Below are positions 1,795-59,796 of a stretch of 64,000 nucleotides of DNA, piece after piece (the first letter of the stretch is position 1; every line of letters starts with the position of its first letter). The stretch spans positions 10,478,001 through 10,542,000 of the forward strand of contig OY540820.1 of assembly GCA_961205875.1 (NCBI GenBank). The letters run 5' to 3'. The notes below the pieces were generated by a model. The model searched no databases. It was given only the letters and a program-made list of their open reading frames with translations, and was not told where the DNA came from. This DNA is from Sialis fuliginosa. Lineage: Eukaryota; Arthropoda; Insecta; Megaloptera; Sialidae. Both the position numbers and the translations under genes were made by a program.

Positions 1795-4700
1795 AAACAC
1801 CTAACATCACACCCACAGACTGCAGAAACGAGGGCTGTGCTTGAAGACATTAATGCCAAATATTATTATTATACAAGAACTCGAGGACTTTGGAGAGTTT
1901 GCTATCCAAAAGAACGACCTCCAACAAGTAATATATTTTGAACTATTCATTTTTCATAAGTTCTATAATCTAAAGTACAAACTACTCATGGAAAAAACTA
2001 AAGGGACACTTAATTTTATCAAAAATATTATTTATTTTCAAAGTAGCAAGGGTTATTTTCAATAAATTTTAGAACTGCGTAATATGAGTAAAAACTAAAA
2101 ACTGCCTTAAATGTTTGTCAATTATCCTTAATACTTTTTTTTACAGTAAAAACATACCTCAGTCCTGTAGAAACTCACTGCAATAATGTGAACTATTTCT
2201 TCCCTGACATGAACAATGAAACGGCAGACTTTTCTGAAGATGCCATGACGAGATTACGTAAGTTTGTTATATTAATTTTTTATTAAATTCATAATACATA
2301 ATGGTGTAGATATCAAATAACTGAACAATTAATGTTATGGAGATATATATATATTTAAATAATGCTTAACAAAAAAACACTGTCATCACAGTCCTGAATA
2401 TTTTTACTGCAATGTATGAAGAAATTTAAATAAATATTAATAATATTAAGAACACTACTGCAGAGCAAGAGTTTATAATGATTTTACATGTAATTTTTCT
2501 TTAGATATGGCAAGATCTGTGATTGCTCTTATAATTCTTTCCTTCGTTGTAACTGGAATATCCTGGATTACGGGGATCGCAGGATGCTGGGTTCGCGGAG
2601 CTGGTAGAATAGCAGCCACAGCTGCATTGACGTTACTGTCATGTCTTCTAGCGGCTGGGGCCATGGGATTATGGCACACTGTTGACTATTATGAAAAGGA
2701 AAAACTTGTTGGAGAAGAATTCTCCATGCAATGGAGTCAGGTAATATTAAAATATTTTTATTAAAAATCTTTATATTAACAGAACAATCCATAACAAACA
2801 AAAAATGAAACATGAACCTAGGAATCATTATTCTGCTACTGTATTCTCATTTATATCATTTTATCTGTCAATAATAATATAATTTAATTTCTATGTAATT
2901 ATTTACAAGTACAAGATTCAATTTAACTTGAATTAAAATATAAGTTAATAATCAACCCACAATTCAGGTTCTTCGTGACAATTCAACAACCACCTATGAC
3001 TGGTCATTTATACTTGGGTGGTTAAGTATCGGAGCTCAGCTGATCTCATGTATCCTGTTCTTCTGTGGCTCTCATTGCCTATCCCGTGAAGTAGAGCGTG
3101 AAAAGGAGTCAATGAACGTGCAATACATAATGCCTGGTACGAATATTATAATTAAGCGTATATGTTTATAGGTCCTCAGAGATAATGTGAAAATGTCATA
3201 CGACTGGAGCTATGTGCTAGCATGGTGTGCTATTGGGGCGCATTTCCTGACGGCTCTTCTCTATAGCGGGGCTGCTGTATGTCTGAGAAATGAACGGGAC
3301 AGGGAGGAGGCTATCAACATGCAGTACCTAATGCCTGGTAACTTTTGGGACTCTTTCTGTGTGTGTTTAACAATTAAGTAGTACAACAATACAATATTCA
3401 ATATTACGGTTCCTTAAAAATTTACTCCTAACATTTTAAACAAGTCGTTCATTTCAAAGTTTGCTATAAAATATACCAATGTGTGTGACGAATGAAATCA
3501 ATAATTAATGCAGGGCCAGAGGAAGGCGGCGAAAATGCGTGAGAATAGCATTATCAGAATTAAGTAAAAAGTGATATGAGGAGTAAAAAAAAAAGAAAGA
3601 GAGTGTAAAAGTAAATTTAAGGGGTGACAAAATCGTAATGACAACCAAAAAAATAGCAGAGGGTGCAAAAGTATGGAAAAAAAGGCAGTAATATGAATTT
3701 TTCACACACCATCTGAATCCCTAACGCCGGTCCTGAATTAATGTATCAACTAATTTAAAGGAACTGTAGATTCTTCATCTCAATGCAGCTTCATCAATTT
3801 CAATACCCCTCACCACTGCCAAAAAGCACATAATAAAAATTAAAATTTTTAAATATGTGAAATGATAGTAATTAACTCATTCTATTTATCTGCAAAATTA
3901 TTATTTTTAACAAGCATAATTCATGCTAATTTGTACAGTGATAATATATTAATCTTTATAATTATTAGACCCCCCCCCCCCTGGTTACATACACAACAGG
4001 AAAATACTGACATATTCAGTAATAATATTTTTGTTTTTAGAATAATATATACGATATATACTCTCAGAATGGTTATTGTTGTACTACTAAAATACAAAAA
4101 TCTGTTTCATTTAATGAAAATAATTTTTTTCATAAAATTTCTTTAACGTATTAACTATATTATCAATAGTTATTATTATTATTCAGCGAGTGTGTACTGG
4201 ATACCAATAATTGATATCATGTAAATTTGAAACAGATATCCAAATGCTATTTTATTTATGTGAAAACTATTACAAGAACTATATTTCAATAATAAAAGTA
4301 ATTTCACATAAATAATAAAATTCTTTTTTGATAATTTCTTAATTTACATACGATTTCTCAATTTCCAATAAAATTTTGCTTTGCTTGCTTTTATAATTTT
4401 TCATGCTTCTCTTTTAACATACTAAAATAAAAGAATACCAATTATTTTATATCAGTGGTGCGCACCATTTGTATTCAAAGGGCAATTAAAATTTTATTTT
4501 ATACCACAGGTTGGATTTAAAATTTTAATTCTCATTGTTTTTTTTTTTAACTAAAACGGATCACAATAATTATTTTTCGTTAACTTCACATTATTCATTA
4601 TTTACTCCTCCTCTTTAAATCCACCTGCAAATTATAAGAAATAGTTATTTTGTTACAAATGTAACTAAATAGGTATATGTTTGGATGTTATTTGTAACAT

Positions 4701-5065
4701 CTAAAAAATTTTTTTTTAAGAATTAAGTAAACACATTAATTAATTAACTCTCTTGCAATAAATCCTAAATTGGCAAATGTGTGACCATTATTATACTGCT
4801 ACTGTTTTTCATTCGTAACATTTGTTGTTAATTTTTATTTGTTTATATTTTAATATTAATATTTGATTAGGCGGAGAAGGGCTGTGCAAAAAAACTGGAC
4901 ACGGGTTGCGCATCACTATTTTAAATGCACGTGTAAAATTTTTATTTTATTTTTTCAGTTTATCCACAAAAACAACAATATGCATATGCTGGATACCCCG
5001 CACCTCCACAGGCCTATCCAGGTCCGTATTATCATGGGTCACAATATGGCCCCTACAATTATTAA
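1795..5065 (+). CDS. Claudin/PMP22-family four-pass membrane protein (5' exon missing)
   Basis: Exons: 1795-1927, 2147-2257, 2505-2740, then either 2968-3136 or 3172-3337, then 4959-5065. All phases join. The protein shows the claudin loop-1 signature GLWxxC (GLWRVC), two further loop cysteines nearby, then three membrane segments: RSVIALIILSFVVTGISWI, the alanine/leucine-rich stretch ending GAMGLWHTV, and a last one in the duplicated exon. The cytoplasmic tail is rich in Y, P and Q and ends HGSQYGPYNY. In known members the first membrane segment precedes GLW, so the start exon lies upstream and was not found. Insect claudin-like proteins act at septate junctions or in membrane organisation; which subfamily this belongs to I cannot say. 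The last intron carries two hAT-type miniature transposons. Confidence 0.85.
2968..3337 (+). other. Duplicated, mutually exclusive exon cassette of the claudin-like gene
   Basis: Two exons, 2968-3136 and 3172-3337, have the same acceptor phase (0) and donor phase (1) and encode homologous segments. Both start VLRDN, continue YDWS, carry a membrane helix, and end (V/M)QY(I/L)MP. Each has its own AG acceptor and a GT donor after ATGCCTG. The gap between them is only 35 bases, too short for a spliceosomal intron, so an mRNA should contain one or the other. The choice replaces the fourth membrane helix and its flanks. Confidence 0.85.
3511..3735. mobile_element. hAT-type miniature transposon (225 bp)
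   Basis: Imperfect terminal inverted repeats, CAGGGCCAGAGG at the left and CAGGACCGGCG read inward from the right, are flanked by a perfect 8-base target duplication AATTAATG (3503-3510 and 3736-3743). The 8-base duplication and CA...TG ends are hAT traits. No transposase remains. It lies in the last intron of the claudin-like gene. Its ends resemble those of the element at 18933. Confidence 0.85.
4453..4918. mobile_element. hAT-type miniature transposon (466 bp)
   Basis: The left end CAGTGGTGCGCACC mirrors the right end, which reads inward as TAGTGATGCGCAACC. The flanks TTTTATAT (4445-4452) and TTTTAAAT (4919-4926) match at seven of eight positions and look like an aged 8-base target duplication. 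No coding capacity is seen. The element ends 40 bases before the terminal claudin exon, so it abuts the acceptor region of that intron. Confidence 0.75.
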
Positions 5066-7305: not shown

Positions 7306-8900
7306 ATGACTGAAACAGTTAATTCATTAAGAAAATCTGATTTTCATCTTGTATGTCGAATATGTTTAACACAAAAAAATGAAATGCTCCCAATATTTAA
7401 TTCAGAATTATTATTGATGCTACATTCTTTTACAACTGTAAAGGTTATATTTTACTCATTTTTAATTTTTACATGTATACTTACCTACACATTTTATTAT
7501 AATATATTATATTATTAACTTTGATATTTTTAATAAATGCAGGTGACTGAAAATGATGGTCTCCCAACATCAATTTGTAATGATTGCTCCAAAAATATAT
7601 ATAGTTCATTTGATTTTAAATGTTTATGTGAAGAATCAGATAGATTATTACATCAAATATTAGAAAGCGAATCAAATAATTCTAATTTAATATCAAATGT
7701 ACAAAATGTAGATCATTTTATTTTTACAAACTCAGATAAAGAAGATGAAATACTGACAAATGAGCATTTAATACCTGATAAATATGACACTAATTTTCAA
7801 GATAGTGCAAATGAAGATGAGTCAAATACACTTTCTGATTCTCAAGAAACAACTCTGATTATTAATGAAGATGAAGATTGTGTTAAAAGTGAAAATAAAT
7901 TATATAAAAACCGAAAAAAAAGTTTGAAACAATTGGTAGAATGCAAAACATGTAATAAAGTTTTAAAATCACAAAAACATTATGAAAGACATTTAAAAAC
8001 ACATTCTAATAAAAAAAACAATACTTGTGAGATATGTGGGAAAATTTTTGCAGAAAAAAGTAAACTCATCAGACATCAAATTGTTCATAATCCTAATAAC
8101 ATTCCATGTTTAATTTGTGGAAAAACTTTTTCCTACGATTTCACTTTAAGAGAACACCAAAAAAGATACCACGAAGGTCAACTGGTAAAACATGCTTGTA
8201 CTGTGTGTAACAAAGAATTTGTGAATATAAAAAAACATATGTTGACTCATACACGAGATCCCAGTATTAAACCTTTTAAATGTTTATATTGTCCGAAAAC
8301 ATTTCTATTAAAAGTAAGCATATGTACATGTCTGAAAACTGAATTATTATTATAATACTGAAAATAAGTTGCATTTAACTGATATTTGTATATACACTTA
8401 TAGTCTATGTTTGTATTTCTGCGACTTGCATCCATAAAACAGTCAAGTACTGAATTATTTTCTGTAGTAATGTAAATTAAACATCAAATATTTTTTTCAA
8501 ATCAAATTTTTTATAGGTAACTTTAAATCATCATATTTTAATGAAACATACTGCAAATCCTCCACCAGCTACAAAATTATGCTCCGTTTGTGGAAAACGC
8601 TGTCATTCTACAGGAGAATTAAAGAAACACATGACACGGCATTCGGATGTACGTGCTTACGTGTGTACTAGTTGCGGAGCTGCATTTAAGTTACGCAGTT
8701 CTTTAAACTTCCATGTACGAAGTCGTCACGCTGGTGTAAGACCACACGTGTGTAGTGTGTGCAGTAAGGCATTCCATTCAGCTACACATCTTCGAAGACA
8801 CGAGAAAATACATACAGGAGTTAAACCGTACGAGTGTGTCGTATGCAATAGGAAGTTTAGTCAAAGTACTGGATTGAAAACGCACTTAAAAATTCACTGA
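7306..8900 (+). CDS. ZAD domain C2H2 zinc-finger protein (ZAD-ZNF 1)
   Basis: Exons 7306-7443, 7543-8313 and 8517-8900 give 430 residues. The start is the ATG at 7306; the frame is open a little further upstream but without another ATG. The N-terminus is a zinc-binding ZAD dimerisation domain: CRIC near residue 17, and CNDC after the first intron. An acidic linker follows, then nine C2H2 fingers, the fourth short (CTVCNKEF...HMLTH). The second intron cuts the fifth finger. ZAD-ZNFs are arthropod nuclear DNA-binding regulators. The paralogue at 14462 has the same finger order but no intron in finger five. A polyadenylation signal AATAAA lies near 8991. The gene converges on MTR4. Confidence 0.9.
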
Positions 8901-14461: not shown

Positions 14462-15783
14462 ATGATCGTTGCAATGTCTTATAGCACAAAGAATTTTATA
14501 AATTCATGTCGCACGTGCCTTCAAGAAAAAGAAAATATGCAAGCATTATATTCTCCTAATATTATAGAAATGATTCATTCATGTACAACAATACATGTAC
14601 ATATTGTAGTATATTTTTTATGTATATTTAATTTGTTTGTAATATATAATTTCTTTTTTTTCAGGTTAAAAAGGATGATAAACTTCCATGTAAAATTTGT
14701 AATGAATGTGTAGATAATCTAGATAAGTTTTATACATTTAAAAATGTTTGTGCGGAATCAGATAAAATTTTACAATCCCTTCAATATGAAAAAACTGATA
14801 ATAACAGAAAGAACAATGCAAAGGAAACAATATTTATGACTGTTGTTAACGTTTCAACTTGTACATATTTAAAGTCAGATCCACAAATTATTTTAAGTAA
14901 TGAAAACAATGCAAAAATAAATGAACACGAACCAGGTATTAAAAATGAAAATCTCAGTAATGAAACAACAGAAATTAAAAAATGTAAAATGAAAAATAAA
15001 GATGAATCTGTTTCACTTATATGTAGTATTTGCAACAAATCATTTGCAAGGCGAAAACAAATGGACCGACATGTTTTAATACACAGCCAAGAAAGAAAGC
15101 ATAAATGTGAAGAATGTGGTAAATGTTTCTTAGAAAAAAACAAATTAACTCGACATCTATTAGTGCACAAACCAAAAAATAAAACGATTCCGTGTCTTCT
15201 ATGTGATAAATCATTTTCATCTGAATTTTCATTACGTGATCATCAAAAACGATGTCATGAAGGACAATTAAAACGCATAGTGTGTACAATATGTGGAAAA
15301 GACTACATTGATATAAAATGTCACATGAAGCAAGTGCATAGTGAAAACTCCTCAACAAAACAATTTAAATGTGAACAATGCCCTAAAGAATTTAAAAATA
15401 AGATTGGTTTAGTAAAACACATTCAAATTAAACATGAGAATAATCCACCGCCTGCAAATATTTTATGTACAGTGTGTGGAAAACGTTGTTATTCACGTAA
15501 CGAATTAAATAATCATATGACTAAACACACAAATGTAAGGTCTTTCCCGTGTACTATGTGTGATAAATCATATAAGCTCTTAGGTGCTTTAAATTATCAT
15601 TTACGATCACATCTCAATATACGTCCATTTACGTGTGATATATGTTCAAAATCATTTTATTCATCAAAAATTCTGAAATGTCATTTAAGGATTCATAGTG
15701 GTGAGAAACCATACATTTGTAGATTATGCGGTAAAGCTTTTACACAGGACGGTGCATTGAGAAACCATCTTAAAGTACATTAA
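14462..15783 (+). CDS. ZAD domain C2H2 zinc-finger protein (ZAD-ZNF 2)
   Basis: Exons 14462-14596 and 14665-15783 give 417 residues. An alternative start is the in-frame ATG at 14474. The ZAD has CRTC near residue 16 and CKIC/CNEC after the intron. Nine C2H2 fingers follow a lysine-rich linker, in the same order as ZAD-ZNF 1: both contain finger linkers with H-EGQL and NPPPA, and a short fourth finger. Only the last finger link carries the classic HSGEKPY. The intron inside the ZAD is shared with ZAD-ZNF 1, while the intron within finger five of that gene is absent here. A polyadenylation signal AATAAA lies near 15948. The gene converges on PRPF38B. Confidence 0.9.
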
Positions 15784-24877: not shown

Positions 24878-26980
24878 ATGAACATTTGTGTAACTATTGT
24901 TGCTGTAAGTTGTTTTCATTGTTTATTTTAATAAGTGTTAATTGTGATTGATAGGTATTTTGCATGAAGGATTATAAATACGATCAGAAACGTAGCTATG
25001 GGTTGACGAAACCGGTTCCAACCGAAGTGAAAAAAATCATCTTATAAAATAATACCTATGTAAGATAGGAAAACAAACTAACAATAAATTTGTTTTCATA
25101 TATTTATAAATAAAAAAACAGTGTATGGGTGGCTGATACAGGTCTTTACTAGGAACGCAAGGGACCCTAGCAAGACGCTTGTGAATTCAATTTCAATGTA
25201 TTTTGTATTTCAGTTGAATTTTTTAGTAACTTTTGATCAGTACACAACCAAAATGCAAAATCCATTGGTTTTGTGCGGGGTCTTTTCTAATAATAATAAT
25301 AATTAATAATTAATAATACAAAATAAAATAAAACTACTGTATACGCGTCGCTATACGAAACTGGAGTATTTATACGCACGCCTTTAATACCTTCTAAAGT
25401 TAATTGTTGTTTTTTCAAAGAAATTTAATCTTCATCATCATCGTTTATTAAAAAAACTTTCCATGTAATCGTTGCTTCATTTTTCTGTAAAATACGAATA
25501 TACAAATAAGGCTTACATTTAAAAAAACGAAATTGACCTCAAACTGACCTTGAAACCTCCGTTCAAGGTCAAACATTTGACCACCATTGGTTTTTTTTCT
25601 TCTAACCCTGAAACTTTTGTACAAAACATTTTCCCTGTAAAAACTTTAGTTTTTGAGATATTTGCTTTTTAATAGACAGTTCATTAATATAATTATTGAT
25701 GAACTTAATGTATTTTGTAGACTATGTTCATGTATACTAGACTAGTATCAAATAATATTGTAATTTTAATAAAATTGTAGGTTCTGGGGTTATTCTCTCG
25801 ATGTTTTGGCGAGCCCCCAACTCATTATGGACCTCCACAAAGTTATGGACCTCCACAAAGTTATGGACCTCCACAAAGTTATGGACCTCCACCACAACCA
25901 GTTTATGGGCCACCGCCTAGACCTGTATATGGACCACCTAAACCTGTGTATGGGCCTCCACCGAAACCAGTATATGGGCCTCCACCTAAACCAGTCTATG
26001 GACCTCCGCCTAAGCCTGTATATGGACCACCAAAACCTATTTATGGACCGCCACCCAAGCCAATATACGGGCCTCCACCGAAGCCAATATACGGGCCTCC
26101 ACCCAAGCCAATATATGGACCGCCACCAAAGAAACATTTTCATAAAATAAAACCAGTGTACGGTCCTCCACCTAAGCCAATTTATGGACCACCGCCTAAA
26201 CCAGTCTATGGGCCTCCCCCTAAGCCAGTTTATGGCCCACCTAAACCAGTGTATGGACCACCTCCTAAACCAGTCTATGGGCCTCCTCCTAAACCAGTCT
26301 ATGGGCCTCCCCCTAAACCAGTTTATGGGCCTCCCCCTAAGCCAGTTTATGGCCCACCTAAACCAGTCTATGGACCTCCCCCTAAACCAGTTTATGGACC
26401 TCCCCCTAAACCAGTTTATGGGCCTCCACCTAAACCAGTTTATGGATTACCACAACCTGTTTATGAGGCTCCAATCCACCACGTGCCTCAATCAAATTAT
26501 GGACCTCCACCACAACCTATTTACGAAGCTCCAATACAACATTCACCACCGCAATCAATATATGGTGCACCGCAACAAAATTTCGACACCCATTCCGACT
26601 TTGGACAAAGTTTCCAGAACAATATAAACATTCCTCCGTCAACAAACTACGGAGTTCCTGATATTCAAATATCTGCACATGCTGCTACACCTAATGATTT
26701 CGGAATATCTGCTGGTCACAATTTTGGTACATCAGCAATTTCTTCTTTAGATATCTCGCATCAAGAAATACCTTTTAATATACCTTCAGCACCTGCGCAA
26801 ACTTATGGGTCTCCGTCGTTATTGCCTGGACAATCTTCTGGTTTATCGATATCTCCAAATTACGGAGTTCCATCGACGAATTATGGAACTCCAGGTTTAG
26901 ATTTACCTTCTACGAGTTATGGATCGCCGAGTAGTTTTGGTGGCACAGGAGGGCAATTTGCGGAGCCTCCTTATCATTGA
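24878..26980 (+). CDS. Secreted YGPPPKP-repeat protein, probably cuticular
   Basis: Exon 1, 24878-24904, encodes MNICVTIVA and exon 2, 25781-26980, continues VLGLFSRCFGEPPTHYGPP. Together they give 408 residues. The hydrophobic start, split by an intron after nine codons, is the usual arrangement of a secreted insect cuticle protein's signal peptide. About 26 tandem units of YGPP(P)KP(V/I) fill residues 25-230, broken once by KKHFHKIK. The C-terminal third is less regular, rich in Y, G, P, S and N with scattered NYG and YGxP motifs. There is no chitin-binding RR domain. Such Pro-Tyr proteins could be cross-linked in cuticle, egg shell or secretions; the exact role is not known. Internal repeat units are very alike in DNA, so copy number probably varies. 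AATAAA lies at 27355. Open frames on the other strand and phases are repeat artefacts. Confidence 0.88.
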
Positions 26981-40906: not shown

Positions 40907-43508
40907 ATGGATGTGAAATATATAAAAGAAGAATTAGAAGAAAACGATTCTCTCCAAAATGCTGAAACTTATGTTAAAATGTTCCACGTGAATGTGGAAA
41001 ATATAAAAGAAGAATTAGAAGAAAACGATTATCTCCAAGATGTTGAAATGCTCCATGTGAATGTTGAAAATATAAAAGAAGAAAATGATTCTCTCCATGA
41101 TGCTGAAACTCATGTCGAAATGCTCCACGTAAATGTGGAAGATATAAAAGAAGAAATACAAGAAAACGATCCTCTTCAAGATGCTGAAACCAAAGTTGAA
41201 ACGTTTTTCGTGAAACACAAAGTTATAAAAGAAGAGAAAGAACAGGAATATAAGGTAAATGAAATAGTAGTTAGTAGTTACATATTTATGTAGTTATTAA
41301 TAATATACACTTTAACCATCCTTAGTTAGGACAATCCATTGGGGCAAAAGAGGGTTAATATAATATAAAAACGGGGATTCAATCTCCACCGCAACGAACT
41401 GTTTTTATTAAATAATTGTGAAATAAAAATTCCTACATGTTACAATAAATACATCACATTCTACTATATTCTAATACATCAACACGTGATATTTGATAGT
41501 AGTAACGCCGGGACACCTATATTTCCGTATTATCTGAATTCCTAATTAATTAGTATTGTCAAATAATCTACATTGTATTGAGTTATCAAATGTCGTTTTA
41601 CAGGGAGACTTGGAAATTAAAGAAGAAAATTTGATAGACGCTGACATTCAAAATGAGCAAAATGAAAATGAAGATATTAGTGAAGAAACAAAAAGTAGTG
41701 ATAAATATTTAAATTCAAGTAATGAAAGTAAAAATGTAAACTGCCAGTTAAAAATTACTGATCAGAGCCTGAATTTGAAAAATTATAAATGCAATCAATG
41801 TGAATATAGTTGCACACGAAAAACTTACTTGAATATACATAAATTAACGCACTCTAATAAACGACCTTTTAAATGCAATCAATGTGAATATAGTTGTACA
41901 CGAAAAACTTATTTGATTACACATAAATTGACACATTCTAATGAGCGACCTTTTAAATGTGACCGGTGTGAATTTAGTTGTAAACAAAAAAGTCACTTGA
42001 ATACACATAAATTAACACATTCTAATAAGCGCCCTTTTAAATGCGAGCAATGTGAACATAGTTGTACACGATTAAATGATTTGAATATACATAAATTGAC
42101 ACACTCTAATGAGCGACCTTTTAAATGTGAACAGTGTGAATATAGTTCTGTACGACAAAAGGACTTGACTACACATAAATTAACACATTCTAAAGAACGA
42201 CCTTTTCAATGCGAAGAATGCAAATGTAGTTTTACACAAAAAAGTAATTTGAATACACATAAATTAACACATTCTAATGAGCGACCTTTTAAATGTGACC
42301 AGTGTGAATTTAGTTTTAAACAAAAAAAACATTTAGATAGACATAAATTAACACATTCTAATAAACGACCTTTTAAATGCAATCAATGTGAATATAGTTG
42401 TGTACAAAAAACTGATATTAATAAACATCAATTAACACATTCTAACGAGCAACCTTTTAAATGCGACCAGTGCGAATATACTTCAAAAATTAAAAGTAAA
42501 TTACATTCACATCAATTAATACATTCTGATAAACGACCTTTTAAATGTGACCAGTGTGAACATAGTTTTGCACGAAAAACTCATTTGAATAGACATACTT
42601 TAACACATTCTAATATACGACCTTTTAAATGCGACCAGTGTGAACATAGTTTTACACGAAAATCTCATTTGAATAGACATACATTGATACATTCTAATAT
42701 ACGACCTTTTGAATGCGATCGGTGTGAATATAGTTGCAGAGATAAAAGTAAATTAAATTCACATCAATTAATACATTCTGATAATGTACCTTTTAAATGC
42801 AATCAATGTGACTATATTTGTACGTATAAAAATGATTTATATAAACATAAATTTACACATTCTAATGAACGACCCTTAAAATGCGACATTTGTGAATATA
42901 GTTGTATACATAAACATAGTTTATATACCCATAAATTAAAACATTTTAATATACGGCCTTTTAAATGCGATCAGTGTGAAAATAGTTTTGCACGAAAATT
43001 TGAATTGAATAGACATAAATTAACACATTCTAATCAACGACCTTTTAAATGCGACCAGTGTGAAAACACTTATAAACATAAAAGTCATTTGAATTCACAT
43101 AAATTAACACATTCTAATGAGCGGCCTTTTAAATGTGACCAATGTGAACATAGTTTCATAAAAAAATCTCATTTGGATAACCATACATTAACACATTCTA
43201 ACGAACGGCCTTTTAAATGTGAACTTTGTGGATATAGTTCAACACGAAAAAGTAATTTGAATACACATAAATTAACACATTCTAACGAACGACCTTTTAA
43301 ATGTGATCAATGCGAATATAGTTGTCTACATAAAATTAGTTTAAATACACATTTGTTAACACATTCTAATATAAGACCTTTTACATGCAATCAATGTGAA
43401 TATAGTTCTATACGAAAATCTGATTTGAATAAACATAAACTCACACACAGTGACACCGGAGCTGGGGGGCCAGCTGCCCACCCAAAATTTCCAGTGGAGG
43501 GGCAATGA
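40907..43508 (+). CDS. Twenty-finger C2H2 protein with IKEE-repeat N-terminus
   Basis: Exons 40907-41254 and 41604-43508 give 750 residues. Exon 1 is four tandem copies of an acidic unit of about 23-28 residues built on (N/D)(V)E(N/D)IKEE...END.LQDAE...ML(H)V. IKEE occurs five times in exon 1 and again at the start of exon 2, each fitting the SUMO consensus (hydrophobic-K-x-E). From about residue 190 twenty C2H2 fingers run without a break in 28-residue units, C-x2-C-x12-H-x3-H, joined by HSNERPFKC-type linkers instead of TGEKP. The DNA-contact positions differ from finger to finger. The protein is presumably a nuclear DNA-binding factor; there is no ZAD, BTB or KRAB domain. After the last HKLTHSDT a 16-residue tail of unrelated composition leads to the stop. 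No orthologue is recognised. Confidence 0.9.
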
Positions 43509-55537: not shown

Positions 55538-57191
55538 TTTTGTAGTTTAAATATTATTTTCGAAATGTAATTATGTGTGTGCACAAGGTCTGTGTCTGTA
55601 GCACGGGGCAATTTGTGATTTGTTTACAAGCGAGTTTTAAACTTCAAAATCATTTTAAAATATGTATGTTCAAAACCATTCAAAAACAATTTTAATTTTT
55701 CGATTACTCTTTTTATCACAATACGTGCACAATACATGAAACAAAGAGAGCAATAAGAAAATTATGTTGGTAACGCTTATAACAGTATGTTCGTTAGTTT
55801 TTATAAATAAAATTATAAAAATAAACATTAACACAATGATTGTTTGGATTAATTAAATATTTATATTTATTGAATTTATATTTTTAACTTCTTCTAGTAA
55901 TTCTGATATTTGAGAAACATTTATTTTATGCTTTTTAAATATTAAGCATTATTAACGGTTCTCTAGGGATTTTGATGTTTTCCATGTTTTTGGTATCTTG
56001 TAATCTGAAGTTTGTTGAACTTGATTAACCTATATTTATTATTCTTTGGATTAATGGATTAACCCGTGTTTATAAGACTTTGTTGTTTAATTAAGGTATC
56101 TAGCCACTAAATTTTATTTTTTATTTAAATTCTCTACAGTACAATAAGTATAATAATAAGTAACATAATATAAATTTTGACTATAGATCGAAAAAATGGC
56201 GGGAGGTACTGTCAGCATAATATCATAATTATATTAAACATACTATGTATGTACATATGTTTAATATATGATAATATGCAAAAGTAAATCCAGTAAATCA
56301 AAGGCAAAGGAAGAAAATGAAACCATATGAAACGTTAATGTACGTAAGAAATGGATCAGAAAATGTTATTGTAATGAATGCTGATCACTATACATACATA
56401 CATTGACTACTATATACATCATATACATTGTCATTCTTCAATCTCCAATCCTGATCATTATCTGCTATGTGAGGATTAAAATATAATCAATACAATCATG
56501 GCAACTTTAAAAGTCATTTACACAAAACAGGAGTAACACAATAAAACCATCAGAGATCTTCACCACGTATAATTTTCATGTACTCTCTATGATACTGCTT
56601 GAATACATCTACAGGACACAATATTAATCTACCAGTATTTGTAGACTCACTTTTAGCCACGGAGAAACAATGGAGTTACGAAGTGATTATAATATTAATT
56701 AAATGAAGCTGTTCGCAGCGTGCATGATGACAGTAGCGGTTACAATTAGGGTGGGCCATATAGTCAAGTCAAGGAAGCAGTGAAAAGTGTGAAAAAATGA
56801 ACTTTTAGGGGCAAGCAATTTTATGGTTGATTATTATAGATTTTGGGGCGGAGAATTTGAAAAAAAGAAACCCTATGCATTTTTAAATATGATGTATTTT
56901 CAAACACGTTGAATATATATAAACTTTAGGTTTTTGAATGCGCATTTAGTATTTATTAGTAACATTAAACAAAATCATTTATGGTTTGAATTTTTTATGA
57001 ATTACTTTAATGAGTATATCAGTATATATCATAAAACTTATTTTATCTATATAAATCTAAATAGATGGATATGGATCACTAATGTAATAATTTTATAAAT
57101 TATGCAAAACTATCATTATCATTCATCTATGTTATTACCTACCTGTATATACCTAATATATATGTTATTCTTATTATCATTTGTTTAAAAA
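55538..57191. other. Intergenic region between rod and the gustatory receptor
   Basis: I see no coding exon. It contains the divergent promoters of both genes. Only simple AT-rich sequence and short ACATACAT repeats near 56390-56420 stand out. Confidence 0.5.
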
Positions 57192-59796
57192 ATGTCGAAT
57201 ATTGTGTACAGTTTATCACCGCTGTTAGACTTCAGAAATTTATTTTTAATTTCTTTCATTTGTATCGAATTTGATAACAATTTTCTTAAATTTTCTTCAA
57301 CAAACAGAAACTTTATTAGATTATTCGTATTGGTAACTATTTGTTCATTATTTGTATATTGTGTATTTGATACAGCAATTAATTTACAAATACATGATGA
57401 AAATATAAAAAAGAAAATTTTTGATTTTCTTTTATTGTTAATTTTATCATTTCATGTAATTTTAACAAATATATTTCATTACTTATACGGGCACAATTTT
57501 ATAGATTTTATAATTGGATTTTATGAGGTAGATCAGCGTTTAAAAGATTTGAAAATAATAATAAATTATAAAAAGGTGTATGTGATTGTTTTTCTACAAA
57601 CATTCGGGGGATTATTTCTGACATTAATTCATTCGACTTTTATATTTATTGAAGATACTCAGCAAATAAACATTTTATTTAAAATTTTGTACTGTGTTGG
57701 AAATATAATTAGATTTGAAGTAATCAATTCATTTTGTGGTTTTATTTTAAATATATATTTTCGTTTTGATTTGTTGAATAAATTATTAAGAAATGTTTTC
57801 TTAAATAATAATAGATCAATTTTAGGAAGAAGGTATGTAATTAATTTTTTTAAACTTTTTTTATTTATATTAATGTTAATACATTTGATTAATAGATGTG
57901 TGGTTAATTTAATAAAAACTGCAATGGAGATTCATTACCGATTGTGTGACCTTTCAAAAAAAGTTAATACGTTATATTCTGCCCAAATCTTAATAACGGT
58001 TTTTATAATACATTTGGATGTATTGGCATATGTTTATCAGATATTGAAACTATTAATTACTCCATACAATGTTTCTGGTATTATTTACATTATTTTAGAA
58101 CTACTTTTGCTGATAATTCCTTGTTTAGCTACGGAAAAAGAGGTACATCAGAGTACGGTGACCCGACAATATAATCCTCGACAAATGCGCTTCAATAAAA
58201 GGGCCTCCCAAAAAATTCAAATATTTATCGAATAGGTAAATGCAATTTTGGTAATACATATTTAAGAATTTATTACCTATTAGTAGGTAATTTTTTTCTA
58301 ATGTTTTCGTTCATGGTAAGAAGAAGTGCTATCTTTCCTCTTTAAAATATTTTTTTACTTTCTACTGTACGGTTTTTTTTCGCCGAAATAAACTAGTTTG
58401 AAGTGATTGTTATATTTAATGTATAGTAAAGTCCATTGTGTCACTGTGTCTACTCTATTAATAGCCCGAGAGGAGAGCGCCAAAAATTGCAACTACTTTA
58501 TAAAGGCTGATTTTTTGATATTACGTCACATTTGTGGTGTAGAGATACAGCCTGCCGTCAGTCGGCTGGTTTCGTTAGCGTTTGGCACAGGGGCGGCTTT
58601 ATTTTTGTAAAAATGTTGCAACTACTTTATAAAATCTGAAAATTTATTTGTAAGCAGTATACTAAGTAAGAACCCCTTTTATCGTAATCAGCCTTCAAAA
58701 TCTTACAACCGGGCGCGTCAGCAGCGCGTTAAACTCGTTAAGTTAAACGCGCTGCTGACGCGCTCGGTTGCACACGATTTTGATGATTTTGAAATGGGAC
58801 CGTCTTCAAGCCAGACCCAACCATCCGACCAAGTTTCAATAATATTGGTTCAGTGGTTCATGAGTTATGCGTGTGACAAGGATTCAGGGGACAGACGGAC
58901 GGACACACAGACAGACAGACACGGAACGAAAAGTGTTTGCCTTGACGTGAAACGGATAAATCAATTTAAAATTTTGAAATCGGAGAACATTTTTTTTGTC
59001 TCAATCTGAAACGATCGCAAAGCTTCTCGTATTTTCGATATTGCGAGGAAGCAAAAAGTCTCTACTTGGTAATAAATTCTTAAACATTCCCAAAATCGTC
59101 ATTTTGACACTTTTAGGCTAGATTATATTAAAAACCTGACATGATGGAGCAATTCGGGTCACGGATTCGGTTTCAGTACGTCAAAAAACTCCGAAATCAC
59201 TTATTGAAATAGAGACACCAGTACAAAAGTATTTTTTGTCGGCCTATGTTATCAATTAATATTCCTATTATGTTTTTTTGAAGTTATTATTTTATTATAT
59301 ATATTATTTTTTGGCGCAGCATTTACCGGGGGGCTTTTGTCTGGGGGTGTATTAGTCGGGGCGCATCTCTTGAGGGTGCTATTGTTTAAAATTATTTATA
59401 TTTTTTGTAAATTTTTGTAGGGAATAAAAACAACGCATATAATTAATTCAATTGATTGTTCGTTAATGGAATTTGACATAAATATCGAGGTAATTATAAA
59501 GTGTTAAAAGTTCTATACGTTTATAAATATTGTTGAGTAAAGAATAATTTAATGTTTAAATTGATTTTAGAAAGCGGTGTTTGGACTTCAAGTTTTTCAC
59601 CAAAATGTAAATTTTACTGCATATGGATTTTTTCAGCTGAATTTGTCAATAATATTTCATGTTTGTATCTATTGCCATATAATAATATTATAATTTATTT
59701 AACTAATTTTAGTTATTAATGATTGTTATTTATTTATAGCTTTTGGGGACAATTTTAACAATTTTAATTGTTGTTATACAGTATGAAACTGAATAA
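57192..59796 (+). CDS. Insect gustatory receptor (7tm_7 family)
   Basis: Exons 57192-58142, 59421-59489, 59571-59660 and 59740-59796 give 388 residues, a usual Gr length. Exon 1 holds six hydrophobic segments. The C-terminal small exons carry the family signature: THIINSIDCSLMEFDINIE, then KAVFGLQVFHQNVNFTAYGF (compare ...FHQNV.FTACGFF in many Grs) and the last helix LLGTILTILIVVIQYE, where Grs usually have TYLVILIQF. All three introns are phase 0, as is common for these Gr C-terminal exons. Grs are ligand-gated cation channels of sensory neurons with the N-terminus inside. The ligand cannot be told. Intron 1 (1278 bases) carries a dispersed repeat and a GC-rich hairpin. Reading exon 1 alone would give a false 347-residue protein, since its frame stays open past the donor. 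Confidence 0.9.
58706..58770. repeat. GC-rich perfect-stem hairpin in the gustatory receptor intron
   Basis: CAACCGGGCGCGTCAGCAGC at 58706 pairs with GCTGCTGACGCGCTCGGTTG ending at 58770, and the stem runs on through GCGTT/AACGC, about 28 pairs with one mismatch and a loop of about 10 bases. It is far more GC-rich than its surroundings and directly abuts the repeat copy starting at 58771. Confidence 0.85.
58771..59057 (+). repeat. Third copy of the GTCTGTCTGTCC-core repeat family
   Basis: It matches 22984-23282 closely in the same orientation, from CACACGATTTTGATGATTTT through GGACAGACGGACGGACAC to TTGCGAGGAAGCAAAA. Its GGAC microsatellite is shorter than at 23100. Confidence 0.85.

Follow-up and report, generated by a model that had tools for sequence, protein, structure and literature searches.

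A claudin-superfamily gene of Sialis fuliginosa carries two adjacent, homologous exons separated by only 35 bases, which raises the question of whether the gene is built so that exactly one of the two can enter a given transcript. We addressed this question in a stretch of 64,000 nucleotides (called the window, to which all positions refer unless a contig is named). The spacing, reading frame and divergence of the two exons, called A and B, make it very probable that they are an anciently duplicated, mutually exclusive pair that is locked by both spacing and frame.

Exon A (positions 2968–3136, 169 b) and exon B (positions 3172–3337, 166 b) lie on the plus strand. Each is predicted to encode helix 4, preceded by the end of extracellular loop 2 (including YDWSF in A and YDWSY in B) and followed by the beginning of the C-terminal tail, a topology that was assigned by analogy with the protein family. 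The 35-b gap between them (positions 3137–3171, plus strand) extends from the A donor GTACGA to the B acceptor TTTATAG, such that the donor GT of A occupies positions 3137 and 3138 and the acceptor AG of B occupies positions 3170 and 3171. A first-pass annotation of this DNA had proposed the exon sizes, the gap and shared splice phases, all of which are borne out at base resolution. The two translations read as alternative last helices just as it had quoted them, and its junction coordinates, including the flanking positions 2740 and 4959, agree with the frame.

The other coding exons are found on the same strand. Coding exon 1 lies outside the window on the same contig (C12:10448482-10448607) and was located by a genome search with the Claudin_2 profile (PF13903), to which it is a weak match (E value of 0.006, profile positions 1–37). 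It begins with a CACCATG start and ends at a GT donor, and its splice to exon 2, across roughly 31.2 kb of intron, preserves the phase. Exon 2 (positions 1795–1927), which is preceded by cag, followed by gtaata and in frame with exon 1, encodes extracellular loop 1 sequence containing GLWRVC, and exon 3 (positions 2147–2257) encodes the end of this loop. Exon 4 (positions 2505–2740) also matches PF13903 and carries helices 2 and 3 along with the start of extracellular loop 2, and the last coding exon (positions 4959–5065) contributes a C-terminal tail rich in Y, P and Q and the stop codon. The assembled coding sequence comprises 882 bases (293 amino acids) with exon A or 879 bases (292 amino acids) with exon B. 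Neither a third copy of the exon nor a close paralogue was found; in a further genome search for such copies, all seven matches are exons of the gene itself.

Intron 1 also contains a tRNA-Asp (gtc) gene on the minus strand (positions 737–808), as well as two abutting inverted-repeat pairs (L003 712-1346 and 1576-2209) with arms of 440 and 207 b that are 98% complementary. Together, these repeats make up an almost perfect foldback about 1.5 kb long, which may be a young mobile element. Elsewhere in the window, a plus-strand open frame of 399 amino acids (positions 25781–26980), the first half of which consists mostly of GPPPKPVY-type repeats, appears to resemble an insect protein of the cuticle or silk type, and another of 348 amino acids (positions 57189–58235, plus strand) reads as a putative membrane protein of the insect gustatory-receptor type. 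By eye, a 652-amino-acid plus-strand frame (positions 41550–43508) shows an extended series of C2H2 zinc fingers, and zinc-finger frames are likewise seen at positions 7537–8900 and 14650–15783.

The reading frame of the gene tolerates only one member of the pair. The two exons share a phase 0 start and an end one base into a codon, so the pair combines equal phases with similar length, homology and a frame that is kept by exactly one exon. Indeed, among the computed isoforms, inclusion of either A or B yields a full open protein. Inclusion of both shifts the frame and leads to a stop four residues on (after GPQR), whereas skipping of both shifts the frame and eliminates the normal tail. Retention of the gap after A introduces an in-frame stop 11 residues past the residues MP, at the TAG of the B acceptor. 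Because the double-included, retained and skipped forms all break the frame, the requirement for one exon only is set by the frame separately from the spacing. The products of these aberrant events would be frameshifted or truncated, and those with both exons or with the gap retained would encounter a premature stop ahead of a downstream exon junction, such that their decay is expected.

The spacing would be restrictive as well. At 35 b, the gap is well under an apparent intron floor near 55 b, as estimated from two gene families sampled in the same genome. Intron lengths were taken from exon-by-exon genome matches to the Myosin_head profile (87 rows, 72 used) and the Cpn60_TCP1 profile (32 rows, 29 used). 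The rows left out were 15 of the 87 for myosin (13 from a heavy-chain locus at C9:22.32-Mb, one nested and one distant) and three of the 32 for TCP-1. Adjacent row pairs were passed over when they were more than 20 kb apart, ran backward in the profile or left a profile gap greater than 40. This procedure yielded 75 lengths, most of which are estimates from profile coordinates; the two lowest were measured on the DNA, with splice sites picked by eye. The lowest estimate (43), which involves a row pair separated by a gap in the profile, corresponds to a measured length of 55, and the next, also measured, is 56. The smallest of the other 73 estimates is 58, and 27 of them fall within 58–67. When the omitted myosin heavy-chain rows were run afterwards, the smallest estimate was 66. 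The proposal of the first-pass annotation that a gap too short for excision enforces exclusion is therefore well supported by the anatomy and the apparent intron floor, from which exclusion itself would follow.

According to the mechanism we favour, the splicing factors at the A donor and those at the B branch point and acceptor would not both be accommodated on 35 b. Because bound factors could not share so short a stretch, the A donor and B acceptor would be unpairable. The exon 4 donor would instead join either A or B, and the chosen exon would then join the last exon. A too-short intron is described as sufficient for exclusion in exon pairs in the available part of one report (PMC6071210), and the accessible text of another counts 57 human clusters (9%) with potential interference between a donor and a branch point less than 50 b apart (PMC5740500). 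Any branch point inside the gap studied here lies less than 50 b from the A donor, although a branch point could instead sit in exon A. The gap contains only one YTNAY sequence, located 4 b from the acceptor, and looser TNAY sequences at gap positions 12 and 15.

An intron too short to remove could also be one that is meant to be kept. Under this explanation, exon A plus the retained gap would produce a deliberate shorter isoform that has helix 4 and lacks the tail rich in Y and P, or an unproductive transcript that switches the gene off. The frame is open across the gap to the TAG, and a length under the apparent intron floor is as expected for such a product. However, its stop lies upstream of the junction between positions 3337 and 4959, where decay would be anticipated, and the frame of exon B is maintained separately. 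We consider deliberate retention to be highly improbable.

Mutual exclusion presumes that both exons are functional, and the divergence between them is consistent with long maintenance of both. Identical residues occupy 26 of 55 aligned positions, and the global alignment score is 145, whereas 2000 residue shuffles have a mean of −28 (s.d. of 10, maximum of 14). The exons agree at 33 of 55 first, 39 of 55 second and 19 of 55 third codon positions, different codons are used for 16 of the 26 shared residues, and synonymous distance is saturated to the extent that the Nei-Gojobori dS is undefined. There are no in-frame stops in either exon, compared with three to five in every other frame. The G+C content of the exons is 44% and 50%, versus 20% and 26% for the neighbouring introns and 23% for the gap. 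By these sequence measures, A and B look like exons that have long been kept as coding rather than the outcome of recent duplication or misassembly. We infer conservation of the pair from the divergence between A and B alone, in this one species.

The acceptors of A and B each have 9 pyrimidines among the 17 bases from −20 to −4, and the gene's four remaining acceptors inside the window have 13, 13, 12 and 15. Its five donors in the window agree with the donor consensus at 6–7 of 9 positions, and that of A at 6. These weak A and B acceptors would fit a regulated choice that involves cell-specific factors. The modest sites on the gap side (the A donor and B acceptor) might also be read as marks of disuse, in which case only one exon is in service and the other is an unused duplicate. 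Also in keeping with disuse, exon A alone falls below the PF13903 cut-off (E value of 0.044, 21.5 bits), whereas exon B alone gives an E value of 6.3e-4 and 27.5 bits. Yet both exons are open and bordered by splice sites, with coding-type codon divergence and exon-like G+C content despite saturation, and both fit PF13903 when placed in the full protein (143.3 bits for the A isoform and 153.5 for B, relative to a curated cut-off of 29.1). It is thus very unlikely that one exon is idle.

If A and B are both real and exclusive, their choice could still be decided mainly by regulators or RNA structure, with the short gap being incidental. An exon cluster can do without a short gap, because the alternatives of a myosin heavy-chain locus in the same genome are widely spaced. 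Specifically, this locus (C9:22316197-22332089) exhibits five consecutive matches to Myosin_head positions of about 377–435, which are 219–297 b apart as judged from match ends, and is probably a set of alternative exons for the relay region. Drosophila has three relay-region alternatives, which is fewer than the five observed here.

Competing RNA structures were assessed by comparing three pairings with 50, 200 and 50 shuffles. The pairing of intron 4 with intron 5 (−46.8 kcal/mol versus a shuffle mean of −50.3) and that of the gap with intron 4 (−11.4 versus −12.4 kcal/mol) are weaker than the mean, and the pairing of the gap with intron 5 is slightly stronger (−18.0 kcal/mol versus a mean of −16.5 and a best shuffle of −23.0). 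This last value leans towards a structural choice, but all three pairings are within the shuffle range and so neither help nor exclude competing structures. Among 25 of 41 inverted-repeat pairs across the region, the repeats appear by eye to be AT-rich background. Moreover, given the intron floor, the gap alone would bar the joining of A to B, which leaves an incidental gap as an unlikely explanation.

What kind of protein is altered by the choice between A and B? The description 'claudin-like' holds at the superfamily level, given the strong PF13903 scores of both isoforms, but there are weak indications that the protein is closer to the CACNG/TARP gamma subunits than to classical claudins. 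Both isoforms give weaker matches to PMP22_Claudin (PF00822; 29 bits, cut-off of 26.7) and SUR7 (37–38 bits), and an NCBIfam search with isoform A returned no family. The PDB matches at E values up to 10 (16 and 22 sequences) include none named claudin, and the only claudin-superfamily chains among them, all weak, are gamma subunits: gamma-7 (0.056), gamma-8 (0.13–0.37 in one search and 0.46–0.92 in the search with isoform B) and a gamma-5/glutamate receptor fusion (roughly 1). They are accompanied by obvious chance matches, and the top one of those, a fatty-acid receptor (0.012–0.013), has a better E value. A claudin-like protein from contig C8 of the same genome has no match to gamma-subunit chains, and an exon piece with a GLW motif on contig C1 weakly matches gamma-2, -3, -5, -7 and -8 (E values of 0.27–0.95). 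Contig C8 carries a minus-strand cluster (C8:22710510-22717553) of probably three Claudin_2 genes, in one of which a single open frame spans the entire domain.

The CACNG-GSG1 group, which includes TARPs and calcium-channel gamma subunits, and TMEM114/TMEM235 have a four-helix layout with Y-x-W-S-F/Y before helix 4, as does the protein described here. The loop 1 motif of CACNG-GSG1 proteins is GLW..C, a pattern that the GLWRVC of exon 2 fits. Most TARPs end in a class 1 PDZ motif, which is absent from the C terminus of this protein (...GPYNY), and for this reason we do not file it as a TARP. TMEM114 and TMEM235 may be the nearest vertebrate relatives of the gene product. In the available text of one study (PMC7653359), the CACNG-GSG1 motif before helix 4 is given as Y-S-Y-G-W-S-F and a protostome-specific subfamily is reported; the accessible portion of another (PMC11202810) moves TMEM114 out of the claudins to the gamma-subunit relatives. 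The corresponding sequences are TTTYDWSF (A) and KMSYDWSY (B), wherein G is replaced by D in both and the last F by Y in B, and the matches to this group are weak (E values of 0.06–1.1). On this weak evidence, we regard the protein as a claudin-superfamily member that may lean to the CACNG side, and file it as neither a claudin nor a TARP.

The swap would exchange helix 4 along with its two flanks, where extracellular loop 2 ends and the C-terminal tail begins. Across a helix segment of 26 residues, A and B are identical at 9 positions, and mean hydropathy is nearly unchanged (1.64 for A and 1.57 for B). The strong difference in helix faces proposed in the first-pass annotation does not hold, as the substitutions are spread round the helix with no clustering on one face (permutation p = 0.40). 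As judged from sequence, the segment is probably kept as a helix in both isoforms while its side chains differ all round. By analogy, the swapped module may be a partner-docking helix. The swap would likely serve to select or tune a membrane partner, because the equivalent region in CACNG/TARP proteins belongs to a receptor-contacting module. A more specific proposal, which we put forward only tentatively, is that an insect CACNG/TARP relative swaps its receptor-docking helix 4 and YxWS loop by a hard-wired exclusive pair, and so would provide two auxiliary subunits that differ in their receptor or channel partners.

Several known systems resemble this arrangement in part. Exons 2 and 3 of alpha-tropomyosin are reportedly two alternatives that are kept apart by a donor and branch point in close proximity, in a longer intron with the branch point near the donor. 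Similarly, in the available text on OGDH exons 4a and 4b, the first donor is too near the second branch point (25–41 nt), but the intervening intron is longer and its branch point lies near the donor, whereas here the whole gap is 35 b (PMC7969005). The insect Mhc and Dscam1 clusters are likewise tandem homologous exons in arthropod genes, but have more alternatives and wider spacing than A and B, as seen for Mhc in this genome. Exclusion in Dscam1 is tied to RNA secondary structures in the part of the source available (PMC8042237).

Among claudins, CLDN18 swaps exons 1a and 1b to make two isoforms, although these are N-terminal first exons whereas A and B are internal and encode helix 4 (PMC9153115, as excerpted). 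The earlier statement that no such pair is known in a claudin-family gene is not contradicted by the titles and opening abstract lines of the open-access papers searched, among which we recognised no claudin, stargazin or CACNG exon pair. The splicing device itself is already known and ordinary, and its use on helix 4 in a claudin-superfamily gene was not met in the available text of the papers searched.

The pair, if real, would amount to a clean natural switch between two versions of a single helix in a claudin-superfamily protein, and tissue use and exon exchange could then show what helix 4 contributes to the choice of partner. At 35 b, the gap would also provide a compact natural setting for testing the minimum intron rule in insects.
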